Shown here piece after piece: positions 6,601 to 20,346 of a stretch of 64,000 bases of DNA; the first letter of the stretch is position 1; each line of letters starts with the position of its first letter. Both the position numbers and the translations under genes were made by a program. The stretch comes from a virus: positions 1 to 64,000 of the IMG/VR virus record IMGVR_UViG_3300028569_000016. The stretch is one strand, 5' to 3'. Below the pieces are notes generated by a model. It was not told the origin of the DNA and ran no database searches. It saw nothing but the letters and a program-made list of their open reading frames with translations.

Positions 6601-6688
6601 GACGTAAGTCGTTGGTACCAAATAACTTAGAGAAAATTCGGCCGGCCCGCCTTGTCGTAAGTCCTTTGCTGATAAGGGTTTACGTCAA
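6601..6688 (-). repeat. Family R double-hairpin element, copy 1
   Basis: Starts GACGTAAGTCGTTGG and ends GGGTTTACGTCAA around a GC core (CGGCCGGCCCGCC). Two stem-loops flank the core. It lies beyond the DUF932 gene, after that gene's own terminator. Confidence 0.8.
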
Positions 6689-6699
6689 GTGGCCTAGAA

Positions 6700-6736
6700 A
6701 TAAAAAGAACCGCCACCCATTGCTGAGTGGCGGCTC
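6700..6736 (-). terminator. Strong intrinsic terminator of the DUF932 gene
   Basis: Leftward, GCCGCCAC pairs with GGTGGCGG around TCAGCAATG and is followed by TTCTTTTTATTTC. It is placed 26 bases after the stop codon. Confidence 0.9.
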
Positions 6737-6761
6737 CCGTGTCAACCCCCATGACGAGGGA

Positions 6762-7712
6762 TTACAGTGCTTGGGCGAACTGCATAGCTTTTTCCAAAGC
6801 CTTGACATTGTCGTTCGCGTTCAGTCCGAACCACAGGCTGTCGAGCCGATTGTCTTCGGTGCGACCCTTGTGATAATTTAGATACTCATTATATCCGTTC
6901 ATTGCGGCCCACCATGTGCCTCTCACGCCCGTAGCACTCTGCTTCGGGCCTTCGACCAGATTCAAAATCTCGTCCATAATATTACGGGTACGAGTCTTGA
7001 TCTGATCGTCCGGCGTACCGTCGATGTCGAGCATCACCTTGACATAGCGACGAACGTCGGCCTGATTGAAGTTCTTTGACGCGAGGAACCTGAATTGCTC
7101 CGCAGTCGCTTCAAACTCCATGTTGATGTTGTCCATGATATCTCGCACATTTTCCAGATTGGTCTTGCTGGAACGTGTGTGACGAATCCGAATCAGCTTG
7201 GAACCACTACTCTTGCTATGGGCCATTGCCATTGTGTTTGCACACACAACCCGAATCGGCGTATAGCCAACCCGGATAGCGGTCGTGCCATCGTGCGAGT
7301 TGCTGAGGAGAATAAACTTCCCAACCTCGTCACCCTTCACGATTTCGCTATTGCTCCGATTCAACTGGGCAAGCACCCACACCTTCTGACCACTGTGGAG
7401 AGAACCCGCAGTATGCAGATTGCACTCACCAGCGTCGAGAAACGGCTGGAACCAATCGAATGCCTCGCTGTTTTGCAGGGGAGTATACCGTGGGCCGACA
7501 ACGCCCAAAATGCTATCGTCAGTCTTTCGGTAGGTAGCACGAGCCGGGACGGGCTGGCCGTCAGTCGTGACCAAATCCTTCAAGCCGACTTCCCAATCCA
7601 AACCAGCAGCAGTGATTGCTTCCGAAATCGTGGGAGCTTGGTCGAGTTCATTACCCAGACCGTGCCACGGGGTCGCACCAACAAACATCATCTGTTCAAC
7701 TGCATGAGCCAT
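6762..7712 (-). CDS. DUF932 (phage/plasmid-like TIGR03299) protein, 316 aa
   Basis: The N-terminus (MAHAVEQMMFVGATPWHGLG) and the central VGYTPIRVVCANTMAMA segment are characteristic of the DUF932/TIGR03299 family found in many phages and plasmids. The biochemical role is unproven; a link to DNA metabolism or recombination has been suggested for the family. The start at 7712 rather than 7718 gives 8-base spacing from GAGGA. Full length for the family. Its GC content is higher than that of the structural genes. Monocistronic: own promoter at 7755 and a strong terminator. Confidence 0.9.
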   Translation of the reverse strand: MAHAVEQMMFVGATPWHGLGNELDQAPTISEAITAAGLDWEVGLKDLVTTDGQPVPARATYRKTDDSILGVVGPRYTPLQNSEAFDWFQPFLDAGECNLHTAGSLHSGQKVWVLAQLNRSNSEIVKGDEVGKFILLSNSHDGTTAIRVGYTPIRVVCANTMAMAHSKSSGSKLIRIRHTRSSKTNLENVRDIMDNINMEFEATAEQFRFLASKNFNQADVRRYVKVMLDIDGTPDDQIKTRTRNIMDEILNLVEGPKQSATGVRGTWWAAMNGYNEYLNYHKGRTEDNRLDSLWFGLNANDNVKALEKAMQFAQAL

Positions 7713-7754
7713 TTTCATATCCTCTTAGTGTTTTTCAATCGTTCCTATGCTAGC

Positions 7755-7783
7755 ATTCTACAGTATGTTATCGTCACTGTCAA
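7755..7783 (-). promoter_or_regulatory. Early sigma70-type promoter
   Basis: TTGACA, 17 bases, TAGAAT on the minus strand, 40 bases ahead of the DUF932 start. Confidence 0.85.
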
Positions 7784-7809
7784 GCGAAAACTTTGGAAAA
7801 ATTCTTTTC

Positions 7810-7892
7810 GTCGTAAGTGGTTGGTAGATAAGGACTTACGGCGACCGGGGCCGGGCGGCTTTGCCCTAAGTCCTTTGTGGAAAGGAGTTTAG
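7810..7892 (-). repeat. Family R double-hairpin element, copy 2
   Basis: GTCGTAAGTGG pairs with AAGGACTTACGGC. The GC core is CGGGGCCGGGCGGC. The right stem starts CCCTAAGTCCTTT and ends AAAGGAGTTTAGAG. It overlaps the 3' end of the phosphoribosyltransferase gene and precedes the next promoter. Confidence 0.8.
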
Positions 7893-8357
7893 AGCAGGGA
7901 AGCCGAAGTCCCGTTTAAAGAGCTTAGAGCCTTCTTTACCAAAATAATTACATTCATCTGGTAAGTAGAAGTAAGCTCCCACGCATATAGAGCGTGGACA
8001 TTCATTGTGTAGAGTATTCTGAATTAGTTTTACAGTGGTTCCTGAACAAGTAAGATCATCAACAATAATATAATGATAAGGTGCTACTCCTTCTATATCA
8101 AAAACTGAATAACGTTTATCATCTGGTTTACGAACTACTACTATATGCTTATCTAGTACCTCAGCTATTTGTGGAACAACCATTAATCCACTAGTACCAC
8201 AACAAGCAATGCTATCAAAATTATAGTTACGCAGGTCCTTCACTGCGTCCATAATAATCTTATTTCTATACTGATGATTCAGTATAATAGATGTGTGAGA
8301 GGAACCCTGAATTACTTTACCATCGTTAGTCTTTCTGTGGCTATCAATGGTAAACAT
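7866..8357 (-). CDS. Phosphoribosyltransferase-fold protein, 163 aa
   Basis: Residues about 106-122 read YIIVDDLTCSGTTVKLI, the PRPP-binding loop of type I phosphoribosyltransferases (hydrophobic strand, two acidic residues, then T/S-G-T-T). The upstream SIACCGTSGLMVVPQIAE segment matches the conserved first strand and helix. It may salvage nucleobases or make nucleotides; the substrate is not predictable. The start at 8357 lies only 4 bases from a tRNA-like element, so both may share one transcript. The C-terminus runs into an R element. Confidence 0.8.
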   Translation of the reverse strand: MFTIDSHRKTNDGKVIQGSSHTSIILNHQYRNKIIMDAVKDLRNYNFDSIACCGTSGLMVVPQIAEVLDKHIVVVRKPDDKRYSVFDIEGVAPYHYIIVDDLTCSGTTVKLIQNTLHNECPRSICVGAYFYLPDECNYFGKEGSKLFKRDFGFPALNSFPQRT

Positions 8358-8361
8358 AAAA

Positions 8362-8442
8362 GTGGATGGTACGATTCGAACGTACAGCTAATTAAGAAAG
8401 AAATAAAGAATATATAGTCTAGACCCACCTAGAAGCATCCAC
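8362..8442 (-). tRNA. tRNA-like element with abnormal anticodon arm
   Basis: A 7-bp acceptor stem (GTGGATG/CATCCAC), a D-arm-like TCTA/TAGA stem and a T arm (GTACG-TTCGAAT-CGTAC) are clear on the minus strand. Between D and T arms about 32 AU-rich bases form no standard 5-bp anticodon stem. It may be a degenerate tRNA, a tRNA mimic, or a substrate for RNase P or Z. Directly upstream of the phosphoribosyltransferase gene. Confidence 0.5.
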
Positions 8443-8446
8443 GATA

Positions 8447-8621
8447 TTAATCGTCATCATCTTCCGAAATTCCTGGATAATAATTCTTTCCATAGGACGG
8501 AACTTCATCATCCTCTTCTGCATCTTGCATCCAAGGTTCTTCATCTATACCAAGATCCTCAGTATTCTCTTAAGAGATCGTCGTAGTTATAATTATATCC
8601 ATCATAATCTTCATATCGCAT
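8447..8621 (-). CDS. Small acidic protein split by a +1 frame change
   Basis: AAAGGA precedes ATG 8621. The first frame reads MRYEDYDGYNYNYDDLLREY and stops at TGA (8559-8561). Shifting +1 at that stop opens EDLGIDEEPWMQDAEEDDE through to TAA at 8447-8449, giving an acidic protein of about 57 residues. A +1 shift on UGA is how bacterial prfB is decoded, but a mutation or an assembly error is equally possible. Confidence 0.5.
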
Positions 8622-8643
8622 AGCAAATCCTTTTCTTATCCCT

Positions 8644-8672
8644 ATTCTACACTAACTAACAACAATTGTCAA
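8644..8672 (-). promoter_or_regulatory. Early sigma70-type promoter
   Basis: TTGACA, 17 bases, TAGAAT on the minus strand, directly after the tRNA-Lys 3' end. It drives the acidic gene, the tRNA-like element and the phosphoribosyltransferase. Confidence 0.85.
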
Positions 8673-8673
8673 G

Positions 8674-8746
8674 TGGGCCCTCGGGGACTCGAACCCCGAA
8701 CCTAAGAGTTAAAAGCTCCTTGCTCTGCCAATTGAGCTAAAGGCCC
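8674..8746 (-). tRNA. tRNA-Lys (UUU)
   Basis: Cloverleaf on the minus strand: acceptor GGGCCTT/AGGGCCC, anticodon loop CTTTTAA, T arm GGTTCGAGTCC type. CCA is not encoded. It sits 6 bases downstream of the 8753-8926 gene. Confidence 0.93.
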
Positions 8747-8752
8747 GCCGTA

Positions 8753-8926
8753 TTATTCGGTTACGGTAATTTCTTCGTAGGAATAACTTTGAATATTCTC
8801 AGTTGTAAAATCATATAGCTTATCGAATACATCAGCCCAATCAAAATCCTCTTGCATGGACAGTTGAATGTCGGCCAGAGTCTTACCATCCTCAGTCAAA
8901 ATATCATAGATGCGAAGGTTCTTCAT
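8753..8926 (-). CDS. Hypothetical protein, 57 aa
   Basis: The start at 8926 (MKNLRIYDILTEDGKTLADI) follows GAAAGGAAA. The longer frame to 8950 would begin at the predicted transcription start, so I reject it. The protein is acidic (FDWADVFDKLYDF). It is transcribed with tRNA-Lys downstream. Family unknown. Confidence 0.75.
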   Translation of the reverse strand: MKNLRIYDILTEDGKTLADIQLSMQEDFDWADVFDKLYDFTTENIQSYSYEEITVTE

Positions 8927-8951
8927 CGTCACTTTCCTTTCTTGTTCCAAC

Positions 8952-8980
8952 AGTCTACCATACTCTTATTGGCTTGTCAA
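8952..8980 (-). promoter_or_regulatory. Early sigma70-type promoter
   Basis: TTGACA, 17 bases, TAGACT on the minus strand. Confidence 0.8.
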
Positions 8981-9000
8981 GGATTCAGAGTTGAAAAATT

Positions 9001-9207
9001 TTATTTTTCTAGTCCTATATAGTTAATAGGCTTAACTCTTTGACTCATAACAGGATAGCTATCACAAGATTCTTGTTCAGATGTCTTGTCTATAAAATTA
9101 ACATAATACCCATCGACATTAGTTCCAGTAATTCTTGCTCTGCTAGCAGAATATTCTGTAGTTTCTACCCATACCATATCGCCAACATCATGCCTAATAT
9201 GAAACAT
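9001..9207 (-). CDS. Hypothetical SH3-like protein, 68 aa
   Basis: Begins MFHIRHDVGDMVWVETTEYS, a G-D-x-V-W-V pattern typical of small SH3/KOW-like beta barrels. It starts 8 bases after the tRNA-Glu gene with no good ribosome-binding site, implying a shared tRNA-mRNA transcript cut by tRNA processing. Function unknown. Confidence 0.65.
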   Translation of the reverse strand: MFHIRHDVGDMVWVETTEYSASRARITGTNVDGYYVNFIDKTSEQESCDSYPVMSQRVKPINYIGLEK

Positions 9208-9214
9208 TATTAAA

Positions 9215-9286
9215 TGACCCTATTGAGAATCGAACTCAAATCTACAGCGTGAAAGGCTGTCGTCCTAGCCGTTAGACTATAGGGCC
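9215..9286 (-). tRNA. tRNA-Glu (UUC)
   Basis: Acceptor GGCCCTA/TAGGGTC, anticodon stem ACAGC/GCTGT with loop CTTTCAC. CCA not encoded. Confidence 0.93.
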
Positions 9287-9317
9287 AGCCATCATAACCC
9301 AAACATCAGCCTCCGAG

Positions 9318-9393
9318 TAGGGCGTGTACGAGTCGAACGTACCTATGATCACCTTATAAGAGTGACGGATGCTACCGGCTTACCTTACGCCCC
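9318..9393 (-). tRNA. tRNA-Ile (UAU)
   Basis: Acceptor GGGGCGT/ACGCCCT, anticodon loop CTTATAA, T arm GTACG-TTCGACT-CGTAC. A UAU anticodon reads AUA directly, unlike the usual bacterial CAU tRNA, which needs lysidine modification. CCA not encoded. Confidence 0.9.
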
Positions 9394-9403
9394 GTGTTGT
9401 TCA

Positions 9404-9432
9404 ATCATACTCTGTGTATCGACAAGAGTCAA
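9404..9432 (-). promoter_or_regulatory. Early sigma70-type promoter for tRNA-Ile/Glu
   Basis: TTGACT, 17 bases, TATGAT on the minus strand, just ahead of tRNA-Ile. Confidence 0.75.
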
Positions 9433-9450
9433 GACCAACCTTTAAAAAAT

Positions 9451-9530
9451 CCTAAGTCGTTATGGGGTAAGCACTTACGTCAAACGCGGCCCGCCACATT
9501 CGTTCTAAGTCCTTTCATACCAACAACTTA
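9451..9530 (-). repeat. Family R double-hairpin element, copy 3
   Basis: CCTAAGTCGTTATGGGGTAAGCACTTACGTC-type left stem; core GCGGCCCGCC; a weaker right stem (TTCTAAGTCC). It follows the five-tRNA cluster and precedes the next tRNA promoter. Confidence 0.7.
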
Positions 9531-9531
9531 G

Positions 9532-9614
9532 TGGTAGATGCTGGGTTCGAACCAGCGAAGGCGATAGCCAGCAGATTTACAGTCTGCCCTCGTTGTCCAC
9601 TTGAGTAATCTACC
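9532..9614 (-). tRNA. tRNA-Tyr (GUA)
   Basis: Acceptor GGTAGAT/ATCTACC, anticodon stem GCAGA/TCTGC with loop CTGTAAA, and a long variable arm as expected for bacterial tRNA-Tyr. CCA not encoded. Confidence 0.93.
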
Positions 9615-9617
9615 TAA

Positions 9618-9704
9618 CGGAATACGAAAGAATCGAACTTTCACCGGGTTTATCCGGACAGCTTTAGCAAAGCTGCGTAACAAGCCAGTATTTACCTGTA
9701 TTCC
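9618..9704 (-). tRNA. tRNA-Ser (GCU)
   Basis: Acceptor GGAATAC/GTATTCC, anticodon loop TTGCTAA, and a class II variable arm (CCGG-ATAAA-CCGG). Confidence 0.92.
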
Positions 9705-9717
9705 ATTTTATTATAAG

Positions 9718-9789
9718 CTGTGAGGGTCAGAGTCGGACTGACATTGACCAAATTAACAGTTTGGGGCATTACCATTATGCTACCTCACA
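9718..9789 (-). tRNA. tRNA-Asn (GUU)
   Basis: Acceptor TGTGAGG/CCTCACA, anticodon stem CCAAA/TTTGG with loop CTGTTAA, T arm GTCAG-TCCGACT-CTGAC. The T loop starts TCC rather than TTC. Confidence 0.9.
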
Positions 9790-9794
9790 TCAAG

Positions 9795-9865
9795 TTCCGG
9801 GACTACGACTTGAACGTAGAAAAAAAGAATCAAAATCTTTTGTGATACCATTTCACCATCCCGGA
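9795..9865 (-). tRNA. tRNA-Gln (UUG)
   Basis: Acceptor TCCGGGA/TCCCGGA, anticodon stem AAAGA/TCTTT with loop TTTTGAT, T arm CTACG-TTCAAGT-CGTAG. Confidence 0.92.
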
Positions 9866-9866
9866 G

Positions 9867-9940
9867 AGCTCCTGGCCGGGTACGATCCGGCGACATTTAG
9901 TTCACAAAACTAACACTCTACCAACTGAGTTACAGGAGCC
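9867..9940 (-). tRNA. tRNA-His (GUG)
   Basis: Acceptor GCTCCTG/CAGGAGC with an extra 5' G (the -1 G typical of tRNA-His), anticodon stem TTAGT/ACTAA with loop TTTGTGA. First of a five-tRNA transcript; one base separates it from tRNA-Gln. Confidence 0.92.
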
Positions 9941-9948
9941 TACTAACT

Positions 9949-9977
9949 ATTATAATCAATACTCCCCACTATCGCAA
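9949..9977 (-). promoter_or_regulatory. tRNA cluster promoter
   Basis: TTGCGA, 17 bases, TATAAT on the minus strand, ending a few bases before tRNA-His. Confidence 0.75.
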
Positions 9978-9989
9978 GCCCGCCTATTT

Positions 9990-10349
9990 TCAGCGGATCG
10001 GGTTCGTGTTCGCTTGGGGCGATTGTCCATAACGGTGTGACGGTGTTCCTTGTGTCCCGTAGGAACCTGCCACTGCGGACGAACCTTGATTTTGATATGG
10101 TTGCGGCGTGGTCTGGTATCGTCGTTGTTGTGGAGCGTAATCATGCCAAATTCCGGTTTCATGTAAGTAAAAAACTTTGTCAATATTAGGATCGTAACCC
10201 ATTAAGCAATATTGTATCGGGTAGACTGGTTTTGTCAAGACTTGTTTTTGTGGAAGTCTGGATAATTTTATATCACCTTTTTGATAATCTTTTACACCAT
10301 TATAAGCCAATCCTAAAACAGCAATCAGAATCCCAACCCACTGGATCAT
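9990..10349 (-). CDS. Membrane-anchored low-complexity protein, 119 aa
   Basis: The start at 10349 (MIQWVGILIAVLGLAYNGV) is chosen because AAGGAA lies 8 bases upstream. The first about 19 residues form a signal anchor. The middle holds a folded-looking YCLMGYDPNIDKVFYLHETG. The last about 50 residues are Gln/Pro/Ser/Gly-rich and probably disordered. No clear promoter is seen. Function unknown; it could be a membrane tether. Confidence 0.7.
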   Translation of the reverse strand: MIQWVGILIAVLGLAYNGVKDYQKGDIKLSRLPQKQVLTKPVYPIQYCLMGYDPNIDKVFYLHETGIWHDYAPQQRRYQTTPQPYQNQGSSAVAGSYGTQGTPSHRYGQSPQANTNPIR

Positions 10350-10439
10350 CTGTCCGTTCCTTTTTGGTTCTCTCTTCGTTTCCATACCATATTATCGACC
10401 AATCCAGCAGGGAAACTTTAGAAGATTTTTGAATTTACT

Positions 10440-10522
10440 CTAAAGTGTTGTGGAATAAGGACTTACGTCAAAGTCGGGCGGCCCCGCTCGCCCTAAGTGC
10501 TTACGCAGTAAGGGTTTGCGGA
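10440..10522 (-). repeat. Family R double-hairpin element, copy 4
   Basis: Left stem around AAAGTGTTGTGGAATAAGGACTT, core GTCGGGCGGCCCCGC, right stem CCCTAAGTGCTTACG/GTAAGGGTTTGCG. It begins 5 bases after the stop of the 10528-10758 gene. Confidence 0.75.
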
Positions 10523-10527
10523 AAGTC

Positions 10528-10758
10528 TTATTCGATACTCCATCCTGCATCTTTTAGAATATGAGTAGTATGCAATACACAAGTATGTCCATCAGCATTT
10601 TTATAGTCTCTATATCCACGTTCATCAAGATAGATATGCTCATCTAGTGTATCATTTTCATTTGTTTCCCAGATAGCATCCATCGCAGCATCCCGTGGAC
10701 ATTTATTACAAGAGTAAATTATTTCTAGAGTTCCACACTTGATATAATACTTTGCCAT
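10528..10758 (-). CDS. Hypothetical protein, 76 aa
   Basis: Begins MAKYYIKCGTLEIIYSCNKC, with a CNKC pair and later C and H residues that could bind a metal. AGGGGA lies upstream of the ATG and it starts 2 bases after the kinase-like gene, so the two are co-transcribed. Family unknown. Confidence 0.75.
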   Translation of the reverse strand: MAKYYIKCGTLEIIYSCNKCPRDAAMDAIWETNENDTLDEHIYLDERGYRDYKNADGHTCVLHTTHILKDAGWSIE

Positions 10759-10760
10759 TA

Positions 10761-11339: not shown

Positions 11340-11350
11340 ACCAATTCCTT

Positions 11351-12064: not shown

Positions 12065-12089
12065 AGCGTTTTCTCCTAGTGATACCTGG

Positions 12090-12118
12090 ATTGTATACCA
12101 TTAGTATCGGAGTGTCAA
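12090..12118 (-). promoter_or_regulatory. Early sigma70-type promoter
   Basis: TTGACA, 17 bases, TACAAT on the minus strand, for the GP88-like gene and probably the kinase-like genes beyond. Confidence 0.8.
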
Positions 12119-12145
12119 GAGATAATCTTGAAGAAATTATGTTTT

Positions 12146-12231
12146 GATGCAAACCCTTGTGGCATAAGCACTTACGACGCGGCGGGCCGCCCGGCTTTGC
12201 TCTAAGTCTTTACTGGCAAAGAGTTTACAAC
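12146..12231 (-). repeat. Family R double-hairpin element, copy 5
   Basis: Left arm ends ATAAGCACTTACGACG; core CGGCGGGCCGCCCGGC, itself nearly palindromic; right arm CTCTAAGTCTTTACTG ending AAAGAGTTTACAA. It lies between the tRNA-Asp 3' end and the next promoter. Confidence 0.75.
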
Positions 12232-12234
12232 AAA

Positions 12235-12308
12235 CGAGAGTGACGGGACTCGAACCCGCAACCTTCGGCTTGACAAGCCGACGATCTAACCAATTGATCT
12301 ACACCCCC
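12235..12308 (-). tRNA. tRNA-Asp (GUC)
   Basis: Acceptor GGGGGTG/CACTCTC with two G-U pairs, anticodon stem TCGGC/GCCGA with loop TTGTCAA, T arm GCGGG-TTCGAGT-CCCGT. Confidence 0.92.
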
Positions 12309-12313
12309 AACAA

Positions 12314-12387
12314 TAACCCCGGAGGGACTCGAACCCCCAACCTAGCGGATAGAAGCCGCTCGCTCTATCCAATTGAGCTACGGAGTC
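12314..12387 (-). tRNA. tRNA-Arg (UCU)
   Basis: Acceptor GACTCCG/CGGGGTT, anticodon stem AGCGG/CCGCT with loop CTTCTAT, reading AGA/AGG. Shares a transcript with tRNA-Asp. Confidence 0.9.
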
Positions 12388-12859: not shown

Positions 12860-12888
12860 ATTCTACAGTATAGTATCGTCATTGTCAA
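12860..12888 (-). promoter_or_regulatory. Early sigma70-type promoter (distal)
   Basis: TTGACA, 17 bases, TAGAAT on the minus strand, 90 bases upstream of the proximal one. Confidence 0.8.
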
Positions 12889-12925
12889 GGGCGAACTTGA
12901 GCGTTGTTGAAAGATTTTTGATTTT

Positions 12926-13013
12926 GTCCTAAGTTGTTTGGTAGTAAGGACTTACGTCAAATTCGGCCGCCCCGCCTCGCCCTAAGTTCTTTAGGGACAA
13001 GGCTTTAGGTCAA
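12926..13013 (-). repeat. Family R double-hairpin element, copy 6
   Basis: Left stem AAGTTGTTT/AAGGACTT, core TCGGCCGCCCCGCC, right stem CCTAAG...CTTTAGG. Here the usual CGTAA/TTACG pairing is replaced by CCTAA/TTAGG, a compensatory change. It overlaps the last bases of the 13010-13384 gene. Confidence 0.8.
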
Positions 13014-13384
13014 GAGAGAAAACCCTCGCAACCCAAGGTGGTCAACTCACGAAGCAAAGCCTCTGCCGCTTCTGGCGTTTTCAGAGTCATACTCTGCTTG
13101 GTGTTCTCTGGGGCAGGATACCACTTGTCGTACTTCCAGCCACCAACCAGATAATCACTCCAATCTTTGGCCTCTTTGAGACCCCATCCGGTGTGCAGTC
13201 GGATAGCCTTGATGCAGTGGATACGGTTATCCAGAGTCATACCGCCCGTGATGGTCACCATACGACGCTGGTTCACACCCAGTGCCACTTCCAACGAACA
13301 AACAATCTTCTCGAACATATCCAGACTGCAACCATTAGCAATCATGTTCAACGACTCACGCACGCTCATTTCGATTTTGATCAT
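13010..13384 (-). CDS. Protein with L7/L12 C-terminal-like domain, 124 aa
   Basis: Start at 13384 (MIKIEMSVRESLNMIANGCS). The central IHCIKAIRLHTGWGLKEAKD resembles the conserved helix of ribosomal protein L7/L12 C-terminal domains (IKxVRxxTGLGLKEAK), the surface that recruits translation factors. Phage proteins with this motif exist, but their role is unknown. It may contact translation GTPases. Co-transcribed with the two genes upstream. Confidence 0.65.
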   Translation of the reverse strand: MIKIEMSVRESLNMIANGCSLDMFEKIVCSLEVALGVNQRRMVTITGGMTLDNRIHCIKAIRLHTGWGLKEAKDWSDYLVGGWKYDKWYPAPENTKQSMTLKTPEAAEALLRELTTLGCEGFLS

Positions 13385-14124: not shown

Positions 14125-14153
14125 TATCTTACACTACTATTATCGACAAGTCA
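14125..14153 (-). promoter_or_regulatory. Early sigma70-type promoter
   Basis: TTGACT, 17 bases, TAAGAT on the minus strand. Confidence 0.75.
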
Positions 14154-14180
14154 AGAGATAATCTTGAAAAAATATGGCTA

Positions 14181-14268
14181 AACGTAAAGTCTTTGTAGAT
14201 AAGGACTTATGACGAATCCGGCCGGTCGCCCTTGAGCTAAGTACTTTAGCAGCAAGGACTTATGTCAA
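14181..14268 (-). repeat. Family R double-hairpin element, copy 7
   Basis: AACGTAAAGTC...GACTTATGACG left stem, core CCGGCCGGTCGCC, right stem AGCTAAGTACTTTAG ending AAGGACTTATGTCAA. It overlaps the stop of the 14265-14519 gene. Confidence 0.75.
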
Positions 14269-14519
14269 CCACTAGGATAATCGGGTGGGTAAGGCTGTTC
14301 TGGTGGAGGCGGTTTGGTCTGTCCCTCATCGGACTGCCACCAAGGGGCATCCATACGATCTACGACACCGGGAGCTTCATGACAGAATATACGGTGTGGA
14401 CTAAAAGGATCGTTCTCACAGTAAGAATACTCACCAGCCCACACGCCAATATACTCACCATAATACCAGATACCTTGACCATGTTCTGGTTTACGATCAA
14501 AGAAACTAATCCATTCCAT
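14265..14519 (-). CDS. DUF551-like hypothetical protein, 84 aa
   Basis: Start at 14519 (MEWISFFDRKPEHGQGIWYY) after GAGGA. The W-I-S-x-x-D-R-x-P-E-x-G-Q opening is typical of DUF551-like phage proteins. The C-terminus is Pro-rich (KPPPPEQPYPPDYPSG). Role unknown. Confidence 0.75.
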   Translation of the reverse strand: MEWISFFDRKPEHGQGIWYYGEYIGVWAGEYSYCENDPFSPHRIFCHEAPGVVDRMDAPWWQSDEGQTKPPPPEQPYPPDYPSG

Positions 14520-15161: not shown

Positions 15162-15181
15162 AAATCCTCCAGTGTTTCTGA

Positions 15182-15210: not shown

Positions 15211-15222
15211 GCCCCGACTATT

Positions 15223-15271
15223 GGCTGACTAAACCCATCCAGCCCGACCCCGTAGGGTTAGGCGGGACAAA
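15223..15271 (-). repeat. Family B structured repeat, copy 4
   Basis: GGCTGACTAAACCCATCC, then ACCCC-GTA-GGGTT hairpin, then AGGCGGGACAAAC. It overlaps the stop of the 15258-15407 gene and abuts the next promoter. Confidence 0.65.
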
Positions 15272-15407
15272 CACGAGAGATGCGTTCAAGCATCAAATTC
15301 TTCCCGTATAGCTTTTCGGCCATAGCCAGGGCATGATAAGTGCTATATGCTTCCACATAGCCCACAATCTTATTACCCTTCATTACCATATAGGTATCGG
15401 TATTCAT
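15258..15407 (-). CDS. Hypothetical protein, 49 aa
   Basis: Start at 15407 (MNTDTYMVMKGNKIVGYVEA) with GGAGGAGGA upstream. ATGA overlap with the preceding gene. The pattern V-G-Y-V-E-A-x-S-x-x-x-A-L-A-x-A-E-x-x-Y-G is common in phage accessory proteins of unknown role. Confidence 0.75.
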   Translation of the reverse strand: MNTDTYMVMKGNKIVGYVEAYSTYHALAMAEKLYGKNLMLERISRVCPA

Positions 15408-15673
15408 ACTTCCTCCTCCTCTGATCCTGCAAACATCTCTTCCCAATCTTGAGCATCAAACCCTGTTTTGAGAATCTCACGATCATCAGCACCAAGATAC
15501 GGGAAGCAATTCTGAATCAAACCACCATTCAGCCACTCGTTAGCATCACTGAGTTTGGTTGCAATACAGAATGGACGACCACCAACACTGTAGCCGCTGA
15601 ACCTAATCATATCGCCTTCCACAGTGCGAGTCACAGTATCTCTCAAAGCATACGGTTTACCGAGCATAAACAT
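15404..15673 (-). CDS. Hypothetical protein, 89 aa
   Basis: Begins MFMLGKPYALRDTVTRTVEG with AAGGAGAAAAAGA upstream. A beta-rich first half (GDMIRFSGYSVGGRPFCIAT) and an acidic end (EEMFAGSEEEEV). Family unknown. Confidence 0.75.
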   Translation of the reverse strand: MFMLGKPYALRDTVTRTVEGDMIRFSGYSVGGRPFCIATKLSDANEWLNGGLIQNCFPYLGADDREILKTGFDAQDWEEMFAGSEEEEV

Positions 15674-15700
15674 CTTCTTTTTCTCCTTTTGATTCCCTGT

Positions 15701-15729
15701 ATTCTACACTACTATTATCGGCCTGTCAA
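15701..15729 (-). promoter_or_regulatory. Early sigma70-type promoter
   Basis: TTGACA, 17 bases, TAGAAT on the minus strand, fully consensus -35. Confidence 0.88.
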
Positions 15730-15756
15730 GAGGAAAAACTTGAGGAATAAAAGATT

Positions 15757-15841
15757 GTCGTAAAGTGTTGGGGCATAAAGACTTACGACGACGCGGGCCG
15801 GCCGACCTCGCCCTAAGTCCTTTGGTGCCAAAGGGTTAGGG
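15757..15841 (-). repeat. Family R double-hairpin element, copy 8
   Basis: GTCGTAAAGTGTT/AAGACTTACGAC left stem; core GCGGGCCGGCCGACC; right stem CCCTAA...TTAGGG, again a compensatory variant of CGTAA/TTACG. Confidence 0.8.
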
Positions 15842-15874
15842 GTTGGTCAGTTAGTAGGCAGAGACTGCTAGTTT

Positions 15875-16279
15875 TTAGAACAGGTTAGCAAACCCGCTCT
15901 TGAACAAAGCACCAGCCAGCAACGGCTTTCGGCACTTCGTTACACGCTCTGCATAGAAATTACGCACCTTACCATCCGCAGTCCGACACGTTACCAGATT
16001 ACTGGTACGGATAAACTCAGGATCATTGATACGATACCGACTCTTGCGATTCAGTCTCGCAATCTGGTCAGCAGTCAACGTCTGCTTACCGATCACCTTA
16101 GCAAGAAAACGCTCATGCGTTCCGTGCAACGGCTGCTCGTAAACAAAGTTATAGACTTGACCCTCTTGAGCATTCGCCAAACTAGCCTTCGATCCACCAT
16201 AGACCGAATAGAAGACGAAACCCACAACAGCAGCGGCAACAGCCGCAAGAATCGAACCAAACAAAATCACATCGTTCAT
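15875..16279 (-). CDS. Membrane-anchored basic protein, 134 aa
   Basis: Start at 16279 (MNDVILFGSILAAVAAAVVG) after GAAAGGG. One transmembrane segment (residues 4-25), then a soluble basic domain with ADQIARLNRKSRYRINDPEF and CRTADGKVRNFYAERVTKCR. Two tandem promoters upstream. Might act at the inner membrane. Family unknown. Confidence 0.75.
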   Translation of the reverse strand: MNDVILFGSILAAVAAAVVGFVFYSVYGGSKASLANAQEGQVYNFVYEQPLHGTHERFLAKVIGKQTLTADQIARLNRKSRYRINDPEFIRTSNLVTCRTADGKVRNFYAERVTKCRKPLLAGALFKSGFANLF

Positions 16280-16324
16280 AGAAACCCTTTCAAATTGAAA
16301 ATCGATCACAACATCCATACGCCA

Positions 16325-16353
16325 AGTCTACACTAATTATCGTCATTTGTCAA
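16325..16353 (-). promoter_or_regulatory. Early sigma70-type promoter (proximal)
   Basis: TTGACA, 17 bases, TAGACT on the minus strand. Confidence 0.8.
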
Positions 16354-16396
16354 GCGGGAACTTTAGAAAAATTTTCTTCCCTTTCTTGTATACGTC

Positions 16397-16425
16397 ATTC
16401 TACTATAGAGTATCGTCAATTGCAA
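16397..16425 (-). promoter_or_regulatory. Early sigma70-type promoter (distal)
   Basis: TTGCAA, 17 bases, TAGAAT on the minus strand. A perfect CTTACAA/TTGTAAG dyad lies just upstream at 16441-16456. Confidence 0.7.
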
Positions 16426-16460
16426 GGGGTAATCTTGAATCTTACAAGATTGTAAGGATC

Positions 16461-16547
16461 GACGTAAAGTGTTGATGCATAAGGACTTACGTCAAATGAG
16501 GCCCGCCCCGTCGGCCCTAAGTGCTTACGCACAAAGGGTTTACGACG
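16461..16547 (-). repeat. Family R double-hairpin element, copy 9
   Basis: GACGTAAAGTGTT/AAGGACTTACGTC left stem, core GAGGCCCGCCCCGTCGGCC, right arm CCCTAAGTGCTTACG ending AAAGGGTTTACGACG. Confidence 0.78.
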
Positions 16548-16562
16548 AGGGATGAGAGATGT

Positions 16563-16793
16563 TTACTCAAAATCAACAAAGATGATTTGAGCATAGCCAC
16601 GAGGCTTAACGGTATAGCCGTCGCCATAGTCATAGGTTTCAGACTTGACCGCTGTCATACCGGCCAGAGCCTTAGCCTTACGAACAACACTACGCTGAGA
16701 AGCATTCTTCTTGGGAATGAACTCATAACGATTCACCCAACCAAAGTTAGCTTCACCACCATAGGTATCGGTATGTGTAACGACGCACTTCAT
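16563..16793 (-). CDS. Hypothetical protein, 76 aa
   Basis: Begins MKCVVTHTDTYGGEANFGWV, beta-rich with a basic centre (VVRKAKALAGM). The ATG overlaps the stop of the 45-aa gene (ATGA). Last gene of the operon from the promoter near 17,470. Family unknown. Confidence 0.75.
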   Translation of the reverse strand: MKCVVTHTDTYGGEANFGWVNRYEFIPKKNASQRSVVRKAKALAGMTAVKSETYDYGDGYTVKPRGYAQIIFVDFE

Positions 16794-16927
16794 TTAACAA
16801 GTTCCTTTGCTTTCATGGTTTCAAGATACAACTGTTCCAACATCTTCACACGATTCATCGCACGAACAGCTTCACGATTCATAAGTATAACCGCTTTCTG
16901 GTGTGCTGTCAATGGTTTCTTTTTCAT
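16790..16927 (-). CDS. Small basic helical protein, 45 aa
   Basis: Reads MKKKPLTAHQKAVILMNREA, then MNRVKMLEQLYLETMKA and ends KELVK. All-helical and positively charged. A GTAAG-type weak ribosome-binding site lies upstream. Family unknown. Confidence 0.65.
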   Translation of the reverse strand: MKKKPLTAHQKAVILMNREAVRAMNRVKMLEQLYLETMKAKELVK

Positions 16928-16940
16928 CTTACTAACTCTC

Positions 16941-17192
16941 TCAATCTTCATAAGGCCCATCCTCGTTATAGTCTACGAATCCTACAGCCTCATCGGCGTG
17001 GAAATCTTCTACTCCGTCGTCACCATAGTAGCCATATGATTCGTCCAAACCCCATCCACATGACTCGAACGCAGATTCAGCATCACCATCCATACTATCA
17101 TCAAACGAATCATCCTCAACCTCATAATCAGAAAGGTCGGTGTCCATGCACTCGCCGTAGAAATCTTCAACATCGTCATACTCGTAGCTCAT
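16941..17192 (-). CDS. Highly acidic Tyr/Asp/Glu-rich protein, 83 aa
   Basis: Start at 17192 (MSYEYDDVEDFYGECMDTDL) with GAGGGA upstream. About 40 percent Asp plus Glu, and many Tyr and Gly, as in DNA-mimic proteins, though no fold can be assigned. It overlaps the upstream 23-aa gene closely. A DNA-mimic anti-restriction role is speculation. Confidence 0.7.
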   Translation of the reverse strand: MSYEYDDVEDFYGECMDTDLSDYEVEDDSFDDSMDGDAESAFESCGWGLDESYGYYGDDGVEDFHADEAVGFVDYNEDGPYED

Positions 17193-17194
17193 GG

Positions 17195-17266
17195 TCAATC
17201 CCTCACAATGGTAGTAACGTAGAACAAACCGACATAACCCACAACAAAAGCAATTGCACTAAGCAT
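17195..17266 (-). CDS. Tiny membrane peptide, 23 aa
   Basis: ATG 17266 is preceded by GAGGAG. Reads MLSAIAFVVGYVGLFYVTTI then VRD, a single hydrophobic helix. It overlaps the end of the gene upstream. Function unknown. Confidence 0.6.
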   Translation of the reverse strand: MLSAIAFVVGYVGLFYVTTIVRD

Positions 17267-17420
17267 TAGTATACTCCTCGGGAACAAATTCGTCAATGAC
17301 ACCCACAACATCGGCCCAATCCCAAAAATTGACTTCTACGCTCGGGTCACCGATAGGCTCAACAATACCCGCTTCGGCCATGTCATTCAGAATAGCATTG
17401 ATCTCGTCGAAGTTCAGCAT
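17259..17420 (-). CDS. Small acidic protein, 53 aa
   Basis: ATG 17420 follows AAGGAA. Reads MLNFDEINAILNDMAEAGIV, then EVNFWDWADVVGVIDEF. First gene of a five-gene operon. Family unknown. Confidence 0.7.
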   Translation of the reverse strand: MLNFDEINAILNDMAEAGIVEPIGDPSVEVNFWDWADVVGVIDEFVPEEYTNA

Positions 17421-17458
17421 GATTCTGTTCCTTGGTGGTTTCCGTTCGTGATGTTGGT

Positions 17459-17487
17459 ATTCTACACTTATTATCGGCTAGTGTCAA
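17459..17487 (-). promoter_or_regulatory. Early sigma70-type promoter
   Basis: TTGACA, 17 bases, TAGAAT on the minus strand. Confidence 0.85.
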
Positions 17488-17547
17488 GCAGCAACTTGGG
17501 AAATTCCAGAATATAATTTCATGCCAAAGATGAAAAATCTTTTAGTT

Positions 17548-17635
17548 GACGTAAAGTGTTGTGGGATAAGCACTTAGGACACGGCGGGCCGGCCGGTCTC
17601 GACGTAAGTCCTTACTGGTGAAGGAGATACGTCAA
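17548..17635 (-). repeat. Family R double-hairpin element, copy 10
   Basis: GACGTAAAGTGTT/AAGCACTTAGGAC left stem, core CGGCGGGCCGGCCGGTC, right stem GACGTAAGTCCTT/AAGGAGATACGTC. The 3' end of a small membrane-peptide gene runs into it. Confidence 0.8.
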
Positions 17636-17692
17636 GCCACACCCTAGAAGAAAACACATCCCTAATAGAATATAATCACTGATTTTCATCAT
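17612..17692 (-). CDS. Tiny membrane peptide, 26 aa
   Basis: ATG 17692 follows a strong GGAGGAAA site. Reads MMKISDYILLGMCFLLGCGL then TYLLHQ. I prefer this and the 36-aa gene upstream over one longer frame through both, because each has its own ribosome-binding site. Resembles small lipoprotein or membrane peptides (LLGCG), but function is unknown. Confidence 0.5.
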   Translation of the reverse strand: MMKISDYILLGMCFLLGCGLTYLLHQ

Positions 17693-17786
17693 TTTCCTCC
17701 ATATACATGATATTTGACATACTAGCATAAAGAATAATGCCGCAAATATAACCAAAGGCAACACTGATAAAATCAAACTGATACAT
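17676..17786 (-). CDS. Tiny membrane peptide, 36 aa
   Basis: ATG 17786 follows GGAGATACAGG. Reads MYQFDFISVAFGYICGIILY then ASMSNIMYMEENDENQ, one hydrophobic segment with an acidic tail. It overlaps the next gene by 17 bases. Confidence 0.5.
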   Translation of the reverse strand: MYQFDFISVAFGYICGIILYASMSNIMYMEENDENQ

Positions 17787-17813
17787 CCCTGTATCTCCAT
17801 TTTGTTTAAGTGG

Positions 17814-17987
17814 TCAATCCCCGTATCCGACCCAGAAATCATCACCCTTATCATTCTTCATAAGAGTATAACCCCTAGACTTCATATTCTCATACTCATT
17901 GATTCGTTGCCAAACTTCACAGAGAGTTTCCATAACTTTAAGGAAAGCCCCCATAACCCACACAAACGGATATTCGATCATTCTCAT
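17814..17987 (-). CDS. Hypothetical protein, 57 aa
   Basis: Start at 17987 (MRMIEYPFVWVMGAFLKVME) after AAGGAG. An amphipathic or membrane-associated N-terminal helix, then a charged end (MKNDKGDDFWVGYGD). First gene after the promoter at 18007. Confidence 0.65.
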   Translation of the reverse strand: MRMIEYPFVWVMGAFLKVMETLCEVWQRINEYENMKSRGYTLMKNDKGDDFWVGYGD

Positions 17988-18006
17988 AATTTGCTCCTTC
18001 TGCACC

Positions 18007-18035
18007 ATTCTATACTATTGTTATCGGTTCGTCAA
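18007..18035 (-). promoter_or_regulatory. Early sigma70-type promoter
   Basis: TTGACG, 17 bases, TAGAAT on the minus strand. Confidence 0.8.
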
Positions 18036-18050
18036 GGGCTCTGACTTTAG

Positions 18051-18098
18051 GCTGACTATACCCACCTTACCCAAATCCGGAGGATTAGGAGAGACTGT
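18051..18098 (-). repeat. Family B structured repeat, copy 5
   Basis: GCTGACTATACCCACC, then ATCC-GGA-GGAT hairpin, then TAGGAGAGACTGTCA. It lies between a gene stop (18098) and the next promoter, the same place an R element takes elsewhere. Confidence 0.6.
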
Positions 18099-18274
18099 CA
18101 ATTCCCTTTATTTTTGCTCAGAGCAGCATGAGATACGATCTGATCAAACGTATACCAGCTACCATCATCGTATCGGCCAGAAAGTAGAATTTTGATATTC
18201 TTTCCGACAATTTGCTGGACACTACCATATCCATCGACTACTTGAACCACATCACCAACTTTAATTTTTTGCAT
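18098..18274 (-). CDS. SH3-like hypothetical protein, 58 aa
   Basis: Start at 18274 (MQKIKVGDVVQVVDGYGSVQ) after GAGGAAA. The K-V-G-D-V-V-x-V opening and Gly-rich turns suggest a small SH3/KOW beta barrel. Function unknown. Confidence 0.7.
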   Translation of the reverse strand: MQKIKVGDVVQVVDGYGSVQQIVGKNIKILLSGRYDDGSWYTFDQIVSHAALSKNKGN

Positions 18275-18291
18275 CTTTTCCTCTTTCAAGT

Positions 18292-18320
18292 ATTCTACCA
18301 GACTTTTTTGCTGCCGTCAA
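18292..18320 (-). promoter_or_regulatory. Early sigma70-type promoter
   Basis: TTGACG, 17 bases, TAGAAT on the minus strand. Its -35 box touches the hairpin at the end of the upstream gene. Confidence 0.75.
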
Positions 18321-18341
18321 CCCCCTCATACGGGGGTCGGT
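18319..18341 (-). terminator. C-rich hairpin spanning a stop codon
   Basis: CCCCC-TCATAC-GGGGG on the plus strand. The TGA of the 18326-18544 gene is in its loop, and no U run follows. Similar C-rich hairpins end the genes at 19925 and 20373. Confidence 0.5.
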
Positions 18342-18544
18342 TGTGAACGATAATATTTTGCCCACAATTCATCCATCACAAATTGGACAATCCGATCATG
18401 ACTACCACGACAAACGTAGTATCCCATGTGAATGTCGAACAGAGCAAACGTTCCATCCTCTTTCGGATGATAGGTAAACCCACACTTGTAGGCATAACCA
18501 TTGATTTTACCCTTGACAGTCTCAATCTTAGGAGGCTTTCTCAT
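18326..18544 (-). CDS. Hypothetical protein, 72 aa
   Basis: Start at 18544 (MRKPPKIETVKGKINGYAYK) rather than the ATG 6 bases earlier, for spacing to AAGGA. Beta-rich; contains YHPKEDGTFALFDIHMGYYV. Family unknown. Confidence 0.7.
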   Translation of the reverse strand: MRKPPKIETVKGKINGYAYKCGFTYHPKEDGTFALFDIHMGYYVCRGSHDRIVQFVMDELWAKYYRSQPTPV

Positions 18545-18572
18545 TTTCATTCCTTTTCTTTCTTGTTCTATC

Positions 18573-18601
18573 ATTATACCAGTATTATCGTCCAATGTCA
18601 A
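18573..18601 (-). promoter_or_regulatory. Early sigma70-type promoter
   Basis: TTGACA, 17 bases, TATAAT on the minus strand: a perfect consensus. Confidence 0.9.
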
Positions 18602-18642
18602 TAGCCTAGACTAGAAAATCTTTCCTTACATTTTCGTAAGGT

Positions 18643-18846
18643 TCAGATTCTCCACTCCAGAAAAACCAGTGTGAAGTTTTGGTTAGGATACTTTTCGGAA
18701 ATATACCTTTCGGCAGTTTCTTTCCTATTGTCACTAGCTGACACACCCTGAACAACTTTCCCATCTATCATAACTTGCCAAATTTTACGCTTCCGAATTT
18801 TGGGAAGCGAACCGATGAAACCATTCACACTCATTGTCTTTTCCAT
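18643..18846 (-). CDS. Small paralogous protein C, 67 aa
   Basis: Reads MEKTMSVNGFIGSLPKIRKR and includes SASDNRKETAERYISEKY. Clear paralogue of the 19925-20143 protein (FINSLPRIVQ, GATDNRKSTAQDYIDDKY). Both have the same leader, GAGAATGAAAATGG. Function unknown. A CCTTAC/GTAAGG hairpin follows the stop. Confidence 0.7.
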   Translation of the reverse strand: MEKTMSVNGFIGSLPKIRKRKIWQVMIDGKVVQGVSASDNRKETAERYISEKYPNQNFTLVFLEWRI

Positions 18847-18892
18847 TTTCATTCTCTCTTTTCTTTCTTTCTGTCTTACTTCTTATATCGAC

Positions 18893-18920
18893 ATTATACC
18901 AAAGTTTCTTTAGTTTGCAA
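18893..18920 (-). promoter_or_regulatory. Early promoter with upstream A/T tract
   Basis: TTGCAA, 16 bases, TATAAT on the minus strand, preceded directly by a run of nine T, like an UP element. The same tract precedes the promoters near 20,200 and 21,000. Confidence 0.75.
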
Positions 18921-18984
18921 GAAAAAAAAATATGGAATTTTCCAAGAATATTTTATAGTGATTGGCACAACATTTGCTAGATGC

Positions 18985-19072
18985 GACGTAAGTCGTTGTG
19001 GCGTAAGCACTTACGTCAAAAATGCGGGCGCCCCCTCGTCGTAAGTCCTTTAGCAGTAAGGGTTTACGTCAA
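18985..19072 (-). repeat. Family R double-hairpin element, copy 11
   Basis: GACGTAAGTCGTT/AAGCACTTACGTC left stem (9 bp perfect), core ATGCGGGCGCCCCC, right stem GTCGTAAGTCC ending GGGTTTACGTCAA. It overlaps the stop of the 47-aa gene. Confidence 0.85.
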
Positions 19073-19212
19073 GCTTTACGTTTGCGCCTATACACACGTT
19101 CAGTACCCACCCAAACGGGGAGGTAGAGTTTAGGATACAAGTGCACATATGTGCTCTTTACCCATCGCTCAGTCTCTAGTATAACATCGTACACTAGTAT
19201 ACAATAGTTCAT
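19069..19212 (-). CDS. Small basic protein, 47 aa
   Basis: The ATG at 19212 overlaps the upstream stop (ATGA). Reads MNYCILVYDVILETERWVKS, then HLYPKLYLPVWVGTERVY and ends RRKRKA. Coding composition and coupling support it. An RNA-binding tail is possible. Family unknown. Confidence 0.65.
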   Translation of the reverse strand: MNYCILVYDVILETERWVKSTYVHLYPKLYLPVWVGTERVYRRKRKA

Positions 19213-19592
19213 TCATCTTCTCCCTTGAAGCTGAACGGACTGATTTCTTCACCGCAGGCTGCGATGGCCGCATACTGCCTTGCCAATTCTTCCACACGTT
19301 CACGGCTACCGGGCTTACCTACCGGAACGATCATGGTATCCTCACCCCCTACATAGCGGGGATCGGCCTTTTCCTTGCGAACCTTTCCGATATTCTTCAA
19401 GGCAGTACGATTGAACTTGAGAACCTTTTTGGTCACAACGTAACGCTTCTGATCATCCACACCGTAGACGTAATCGGTATCTTCCGTGATTCGATCATCG
19501 GGAATCTCGACCAGCATAGGGATTGCAATACCCTTGAAAATCATACGGGCTTGACGCTTGGCATTTTCGATGATGGGGAACTTGGTTTTCAT
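19209..19592 (-). CDS. Hypothetical protein, 127 aa
   Basis: Begins MKTKFPIIENAKRQARMIFK. Mixed alpha/beta with RYVVTKKVLKFNRTALKNIG and a helical end (RVEELARQYAAIAACGEE). Its GC content is high relative to the late genes. First gene of a two-gene operon. Family unknown. Confidence 0.75.
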   Translation of the reverse strand: MKTKFPIIENAKRQARMIFKGIAIPMLVEIPDDRITEDTDYVYGVDDQKRYVVTKKVLKFNRTALKNIGKVRKEKADPRYVGGEDTMIVPVGKPGSRERVEELARQYAAIAACGEEISPFSFKGEDE

Positions 19593-19634
19593 TGTCTTTT
19601 TCTCTCTTAGGGTCTATCGTTCTCTTGTTCGTGT

Positions 19635-19662
19635 ATTATACCAAACTGTTTTTCAATTTCAA
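19635..19662 (-). promoter_or_regulatory. Early sigma70-type promoter
   Basis: TTGAAA, 16 bases, TATAAT on the minus strand. Confidence 0.7.
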
Positions 19663-19675
19663 GAGAAAAGTTTCC

Positions 19676-19861
19676 TTACAATATCGCAAGGATACCATTT
19701 TCTTTTTCGTAGCAGTCTAAATAAATGAACTGATCGACCCTATCTTGGTATTCAGTTTTGATAGTCCAAACATGACCTTCATCGTAATGATAGGAAACAA
19801 TTTTTCCAGAAATTTCACGACCATCATCATTCACCACAACATTTTCACCAACTTCAAACAT
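19676..19861 (-). CDS. SH3/KOW-like hypothetical protein, 61 aa
   Basis: Begins MFEVGENVVVNDDGREISGK, then IVSYHYDEGHVWTIKTEY. The V-G-x-x-V-V-V-N-D-x-G-x-x-x-x-G-K-I-V pattern points to a small beta barrel. Function unknown. A CCTTGC/GTAAGG hairpin overlaps its 3' end. Confidence 0.7.
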   Translation of the reverse strand: MFEVGENVVVNDDGREISGKIVSYHYDEGHVWTIKTEYQDRVDQFIYLDCYEKENGILAIL

Positions 19862-19887
19862 TTTTTCTCTCTTTTCTTTCTTCTAGT

Positions 19888-19915
19888 ATTCTACCAAAGT
19901 TTTTCTTTTCTTCAA
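19888..19915 (-). promoter_or_regulatory. Early sigma70-type promoter
   Basis: TTGAAG, 16 bases, TAGAAT on the minus strand. Confidence 0.65.
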
Positions 19916-19934
19916 CCCCCTCTATTAGAGGGTC
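19916..19934 (-). terminator. C-rich hairpin at gene end
   Basis: CCCTCT-ATT-AGAGGG perfect stem overlapping the stop of the 19925-20143 gene. No U tract follows. Confidence 0.5.
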
Positions 19935-20143
19935 ATCAATCCCTTGAAGTGCGAGAACGTCAGGGTCAAGGATTGTCCGACATATTTGTCGTCAATGTAA
20001 TCTTGTGCAGTGCTTTTCCGATTATCGGTAGCACCAACATACTGAACAACCGTACCATTCTGATCGGTTACTTTCCATACTTTCTTCTGAACAATCCTAG
20101 GCAGGCTGTTGATGAAATCGTTTGTTGAAATTGCTTTTTCCAT
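19925..20143 (-). CDS. Small paralogous protein D, 72 aa
   Basis: Begins MEKAISTNDFINSLPRIVQK. Paralogue of the 18643-18846 protein over most of its length, with a different C-terminus (TLTFSHFKGLMTL). An identical leader precedes both. Function unknown. Confidence 0.7.
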   Translation of the reverse strand: MEKAISTNDFINSLPRIVQKKVWKVTDQNGTVVQYVGATDNRKSTAQDYIDDKYVGQSLTLTFSHFKGLMTL

Positions 20144-20177
20144 TTTCATTCTCTCTTTTCTTTTTCTTTATATCGAC

Positions 20178-20205
20178 ATTATACACTCTGTATCTTGATT
20201 GGCAA
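20178..20205 (-). promoter_or_regulatory. Early promoter with upstream A/T tract
   Basis: TTGCCA, 16 bases, TATAAT on the minus strand with a T-rich run immediately upstream. Confidence 0.7.
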
Positions 20206-20258
20206 GAAAAAAAAATATGGCAAAAAAATATTTTTTATGGCACGATATTTGCTCATGC

Positions 20259-20346
20259 GACGTAAGTCGTTGGTACATAAGCACTTACGTCAAAAAAGCG
20301 GGCGCGTTTTCGTTGTAAGTCCTTTGGTAGCAAGGGTTTATGTCGA
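20259..20346 (-). repeat. Family R double-hairpin element, copy 12
   Basis: GACGTAAGTCGTT/AAGCACTTACGTC left stem, a reduced core (GCGGGCGCG), right stem TTGTAAGTCCTTTGG ending AAGGGTTTATGTCGA. The flank TGGCACGATATTTGCT is shared with copy 11. Confidence 0.82.

Follow-up and report, generated by a model that had tools for sequence, protein, structure and literature searches.

A 97-bp four-box DNA element lies upstream of early promoters in a clade of uncultured phages

The window, which comprises bases 1–64,000 of the 105,876-base IMG/VR virus record IMGVR_UViG_3300028569_000016, contains twelve copies of a 97-bp repeated element within an island of leftward early operons. We propose, with a probability of about two in three, that each copy is a composite upstream DNA site for a protein, probably encoded by the phage, that acts on sigma70 RNA polymerase at the adjacent early promoter. 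The elements look like a shared control switch for the first genes, placed before nearly every early promoter. Their fixed length, the symmetry of their boxes, their one-sided linkage to promoters and the helical phase of that linkage together argue for a DNA-bound factor that communicates with RNA polymerase.

Element layout, promoter linkage and helical phase

A preliminary description, made from the letters of the window, had listed twelve double-hairpin elements in this region, and all of them were found (Table 1). The copies align without gaps over 97 columns, 23 of which are invariant. A profile built from the twelve scores each copy at E = 2e-18 to 4e-23, values that are circular because the same copies built the profile; a consensus blastn search, independent of the profile, also recovers 12 of 12 copies in the parent record and has no match there outside 6.6–20.3 kb. 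The profile search found no thirteenth full copy within the 64-kb window, and an Rfam search returned no family for the elements, with only tRNAs above threshold.

The anatomy of the element was read from 287 distinct members of the wider family. It is a near-symmetric arrangement of two boxes, a GC core and two further boxes, with GTAAGTCSTT as the general box. Box 1 (GTAAGTCGTT, element positions 9–18), box 2 (AAGGACTTAC, 26–35), box 3 (STAAGTCCTT, 62–71) and box 4 (AAGGGTTTAC, 79–88) mirror each other around position 48.5, and the core at 45–52 resembles GGCCGGCC. Near-invariant bases are the AA at 11–12 and 64–65 and the TT at 32–33. Of the 378 full-length members among the matches listed, 314 are identical to the profile in length. 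The double-hairpin layout of the preliminary description is thus present, in an even stricter form (gap-free and symmetric about its centre), but the evidence given below indicates that it does not represent RNA hairpins.

An outward sigma70-type promoter (TTGAC...TA...T) occurs on 201 of 363 left flanks, with about 4 expected, and few such promoters occur on the right; the element thus lies upstream of a sigma70-type –35 hexamer on one side, as a class I upstream activator site does. Measured from element position 1, distances to the –35 hexamer peak at 10–11, 21–22, 31–33, 42–44 and 53–56 bp. When each pair of downstream gene family and distance is counted once (127 pairs), the distances follow a period near 11 bp with a Rayleigh Z of 43, consistent with action from one helix face. 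Distances one turn apart occur even within one gene family (for example, 21, 32 and 43), and the well-formed promoters of the window lie 21, 11, 22, 32, 21, 22 and 55 bp from their elements. Taking the –35 hexamer at about –36, the centre of box 1 would fall near –61, –71, –82 or –92. The 20-bp spacer, read toward the promoter, is AATTTTTTC.AAAG.TTTTCC, which is A/T-rich and resembles an UP element. A further motif, CGATA, lies inside the early promoter itself: of 220 element-linked promoters, 179 have it in the spacer between –35 and –10, 3–5 nt past the –35 hexamer, where about 3 would be expected; among promoters more than 20 kb distant, only 14 of 86 do.

One phage clade and its early-gene island

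The family is widespread in viral contigs and rare elsewhere. The pattern STAAGTSCTT-N7-AAGGGTTTAS matched at least 120 stretches of viral contigs and only 28 stretches in 84,980 bacterial and archaeal genomes (257 billion bases), and the twelve-copy profile gave at least 453 members, at least 378 of them full length, among the matches listed. Multi-copy pattern matches in the genomes lie on short contigs of metagenomic bins, and because these bins span unrelated phyla, their carriers look like misbinned phage contigs; the host chromosomes themselves have one or two pattern matches each. With more than 400 members, the family is not confined to this genome. No element match was obtained by blastn in 50,697 phage records and 72,556 plasmids, and no description of the element was found in the open-access literature. 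A likeness to hairpins of planctomycete genomes, which would make this a host element, was rejected, as those genomes have only one or two copies each. Single TAAGTCCTT-N7-AAGGGTTTA hairpins do occur in several of them (L124, L129, L139, L140 and L128) at a frequency whose enrichment over chance is not established; the one in L128 is terminator-like and lies behind a tRNA gene.

All carriers examined are one uncultured phage clade, with capsid proteins 61–91% identical. Those examined fully have capsid, terminase, portal and replication genes in common, and their capsid proteins are 61–88% identical to that of the window, whose nearest cultured relative is Bacillus phage G at 21% identity. This capsid is encoded on more than 540 viral stretches, a lower bound. 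Each genome contains 6–17 copies of the element, inside a single early-gene island of 10–20 kb. When contigs were chosen by capsid regardless of elements, 11 of 17 contained them; where the capsid gene lies suggests that four of the negative six stop short of the island, and the other two, G035 and G036, are real element-negative relatives. G035 has two single dyads with a GC core (L309, 15673–15785) in the place that element 1 takes behind the DUF932 gene. Three other relatives, G044, G038 and G037 (L313, L316 and L315), have half-elements, in which the left, promoter-side dyad and the core are retained and the right dyad is missing. Promoters lie 10–11 bp from three half-elements, and beyond several of them the place of the right dyad is taken by a CCCC/GGGG hairpin.

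Organisation was compared over 17 islands, with approximate gene counts because our own gene caller was used. In these, 756 of 786 called genes run in one direction and 210 of 232 elements share one orientation. Of these same-oriented copies, 196 lie between two leftward genes, which bears out the earlier placement, in which an element separates the 3′ end of a leftward operon from the next operon's promoter. The median distance between the upstream stop codon and the edge of the element is 2 bp, and in 77.5% of cases the two are within 30 bp. The order of operons is conserved between phages (f21 / f15..f11 / f17 f8 f4 / f5 / f9 f10 / ...), and single genes shift between operons among relatives.

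A putative regulator site and the alternatives

How might such a site work? A protein, probably phage-encoded, would bind the four TAAG-NN-CTTA-type boxes as a multimer, in two dyads flanking the core. Once bound, it would influence the sigma70 RNA polymerase of the host at the adjoining outward early promoter by a contact across the UP-element-like A/T stretch; this contact would depend on helix face and may involve the alpha C-terminal domain of the polymerase. In this way the site could coordinate the 10–17 early operons of an island, more probably through a class I-type activator than through a repressor. The lack of repeated copies of the motif in host chromosomes makes phage encoding probable. 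Among the roles that the preliminary description had offered, a site for a phage DNA-binding protein is favoured: there are no insertions or deletions, the stems do not covary and the promoter distances keep to the helical period.

Known systems offer partial parallels. Class I activators depend on helix face. Class I sites of the CRP type are centred at –61.5 or further upstream and act via the alpha C-terminal domain (PMC2859248); the present sites are likewise upstream of –35, but a CRP site is a single 22-bp dyad whereas the element spans 97 bp and combines two dyads with a GC core. In mycobacteriophage L5, operators and stoperators provide many repressor sites in short intergenic spaces, oriented with transcription (PMC9283540). 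Those are 13-bp asymmetric sites for the repressor of a temperate phage; here the sites are 97-bp near-palindromes at phased promoter distances, in phages without recombinases. In prophage SPbeta, the repeat SPBRE stands at many phage gene promoters and is bound by one master regulator, MrpR (PMC10516654). SPBRE is a 15-bp motif of a temperate phage, in contrast to the 97-bp element, and its repressor has a tyrosine-recombinase fold; a Pfam scan of 26 genomes of the present clade found no member of the MrpR family.

Several points weigh against an upstream activator site. The element reaches the stop codon of the preceding operon, a contact that would be superfluous for a purely upstream site, and about 45% of flanks are without a strict-pattern promoter (some have weaker ones). 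In addition, no Pfam or PHROG regulator was seen in the conserved families (best 25 families listed in two scans), and AlphaFold models of two island proteins gave no regulator lead: f7 (pLDDT 94) had no PDB match and f0 (pLDDT 61) was unusable. Nor did gene presence profiles, in comparison with relatives that have no elements or only half-elements, single out a regulator, as too many genes co-vary. The sole transcription-related conserved protein is a 209-aa protein with similarity to sigma70 region 2 (window 26966–27595). Its gene opens the late region, just before those of a conserved 271-aa protein that resembles helix-turn-helix proteins and of terminase.

The same DNA site could have the opposite sign, with a repressor or nucleoprotein organiser made late in infection shutting the early promoters off; we consider this unlikely, although it fares best among the alternatives. 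The early promoters are already strong (TTGACA/TAGAAT with UP-like DNA) and may need no activator, and there is a phage precedent. In phi29, p4 and p6 act between promoters A2c, A2b and A3 on paired imperfect inverted repeats and A-tract DNA, forming a wrapped nucleoprotein structure, about 120 bp in size, by which the activity of RNA polymerase is altered at both early and late promoters (PMC3100819). The present element is likewise an inverted-repeat phage site, and is large enough for a wrapped complex. The phi29 protein p4 acts at one locus, where its sites overlap –35 elements, and its half-site (CTTTTT-15-AAAATG) differs from that of the present elements, which number 6–17 per genome, each upstream of its own promoter rather than over it. 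The inferred positions of box 1, and their phase, match instead those of a class I activator.

That the bound protein belongs to the host, as a nucleoid protein or global activator, is improbable. Immediate-early promoters would gain from a factor already in the cell, and no phage regulator was found; but sites for a host regulator would be expected in the genome of that host, and the scan of bacterial and archaeal genomes gave the hairpin motif only in the 28 stretches noted above, the multi-copy ones on small contigs that resemble misbinned phage.

Slightly less probable still is a main role in RNA, with hairpins at the 3′ ends of operon mRNAs that end transcription together with a protein or shield the 3′ end. 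The preliminary description had offered terminators and 3′-end stabilisers as options and had read compensatory stem changes as a sign of structure under selection. In 84 aligned members, covariation for the two-hairpin structure was 0.121, compared with 0.132 ± 0.006 for shuffles, and for a long hairpin 0.154, compared with 0.150; RNAalifold predicted no pairs. Pair counts, mutual information and redundancy-controlled tests likewise gave neither fold model stem-wide support, and we rejected both. Because stem-wide covariation is absent, the compensatory changes in two copies are within the expectation for independent columns, and selection on structure is unsupported. Across the 287 members, the inner symmetric positions 13–31, 14–30, 66–84 and 67–83 in fact pair less than expected. 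With redundancy removed, only two isolated column pairs, 62–88 and 40–57, covary consistently; the first, at the base of hairpin 2, favours an RNA role (z 5.1, 80% redundancy cut), as do the closeness of the element to the upstream stop codon and the hairpin that occupies the place of the right dyad in half-element relatives. Against this, length is fixed, loops included, and RNA does not explain the helical phasing to the promoter. There is no conserved T tract in the alignment, as the preliminary description had noted, and thus no GC hairpin with a U tract on the operon strand as in an intrinsic terminator; copy 1, also as described there, lies beyond a true intrinsic terminator (6690–6725). 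The right dyad lies directly against the stop codon, and half-element relatives have a hairpin in its place; for these reasons the element, through its right half, may have a minor, secondary role at the upstream mRNA 3′ end.

Of 430 unique flanks, 48 have a second motif, TGGCAY-N5-TTGC, next to the element. By its sequence it resembles a sigma54 promoter, but in 19 cases it lies 22, 32, 43 or 55 bp from the outward –35 hexamer, and this phasing favours an operator; it is probably a second operator. It is very improbable that the motif is a sigma54 promoter transcribing the element as a small RNA, even though it is close to the –24/–12 consensus and is directed into the element on 51 of 363 flanks (0.0 expected), as it accompanies only about 11–14% of elements, shares their helical lattice and at some sites occurs in several copies in both orientations. 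A third copy in the window (TGGCAT-N5-TTGC, 21048–21062) has no element beside it and is directly followed, on the plus strand, by an intrinsic terminator (CCCCCACAAGTAGGGGGG-T5).

The elements are inherited vertically and were not spread by transposition: positional orthologues are 75% identical, compared with 60.5% for copies in the same genome and 59.3% for unrelated pairs, the reverse of what REPIN or MITE sequences would show. REPIN and BIME sequences consist of two palindromes in inverse orientation in intergenic DNA; they are mobile and enriched in host chromosomes, whereas the present elements are of fixed length and found only in phage. These identities, together with the absence of tyrosine and serine recombinase families from all 26 clade genomes, indicate that the elements are neither mobile nor recombination sites. 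The remaining suggestion, that attC-, resolvase- or REPIN/MITE-like sites shuffle gene cassettes, is therefore largely refuted: it accords with palindromic boxes in a single orientation, one element per operon, and with the movement of single genes between operons, but the operon anchors are syntenic across relatives, and it would not predict promoter phasing.

Mapped features and their significance

Table 1. Elements, accessory motifs and promoters mapped in the window
Feature	Position	Strand	Evidence
Element 1 (97 bp), behind intrinsic terminator of DUF932 gene	6596..6692	+	alignment, profile
Element 2	7805..7901	+	alignment, profile
Element 3, adjoins tRNA genes	9444..9540	+	alignment, profile
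Element 4	10432..10528	+	alignment, profile
Element 5	12141..12237	+	alignment, profile
Element 6	12921..13017	+	alignment, profile
Element 7	14176..14272	+	alignment, profile
Element 8	15752..15848	+	alignment, profile
Element 9	16456..16552	+	alignment, profile
Element 10	17543..17639	+	alignment, profile
Element 11, TGGCAC-N5-TTGC motif immediately left	18980..19076	+	alignment, profile
Element 12, TGGCAC-N5-TTGC motif immediately left	20254..20350	+	alignment, profile
TGGCAY-N5-TTGC motif (sigma54-like by sequence; probably second operator)	18963..18977	+	
TGGCAY-N5-TTGC motif	20238..20252	+	
Outward sigma70-type promoter, 21 bp from element 2	7755..7783	-	
Outward sigma70-type promoter, 11 bp from element 3	9404..9432	-	
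Outward sigma70-type promoter, 22 bp from element 5	12090..12118	-	
Outward sigma70-type promoter, 32 bp from element 6	12860..12888	-	
Outward sigma70-type promoter, 21 bp from element 7	14126..14154	-	
Outward sigma70-type promoter, 22 bp from element 8	15701..15729	-	
Weaker outward promoter (TTGCAA), 30 bp from element 9	16397..16425	-	
Outward sigma70-type promoter, 55 bp from element 10	17459..17487	-	
Outward promoter (TTGCAA, extended –10), 59 bp from element 11, 42 bp from its TGGCA motif	18893..18920	-	
Outward promoter (TTGCCA), 48 bp from element 12, 32 bp from its TGGCA motif	20178..20205	-	

Ten tRNA genes lie within the island of the window (8673–9939 and 12234–12387). One island protein (13010–13384) has weak similarity to the C-terminal domain of ribosomal protein L7/L12 (E = 2.6e-5, just below the curated cut-off), and another (16941–17192), a very acidic protein of 83 aa encoded in 17 of 17 islands, is a possible DNA mimic. 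On L150, a ribonucleotide reductase-like gene (15540–18812) apparently contains an intein, and a polymerase III alpha-like gene is split across several open reading frames.

These results have implications beyond the window. Palindromic repeats that resemble RNA hairpins can be DNA sites for proteins, and here covariation and helical phasing separated the two. Tentatively, and at somewhat less than even odds, a large and abundant virulent phage clade, so far uncultured, may run the entire island for early host takeover through a new kind of helix-phased 97-bp nucleoprotein site of four boxes, repeated ahead of each operon, and a protein of unknown family, together with TGGCAY-N5-TTGC and CGATA. 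Identification of the protein would yield a regulator that works through a 97-bp multi-box site, and its dependence on phase would be immediately testable. Early phage genes often encode host takeover or counter-defence functions, and most are of unknown function. Comparable signature-based gene collection has worked in archaeal viruses (PMC11065993); the present signature marks early operons in hundreds of uncultured phages and thus offers a direct route to collecting such genes.

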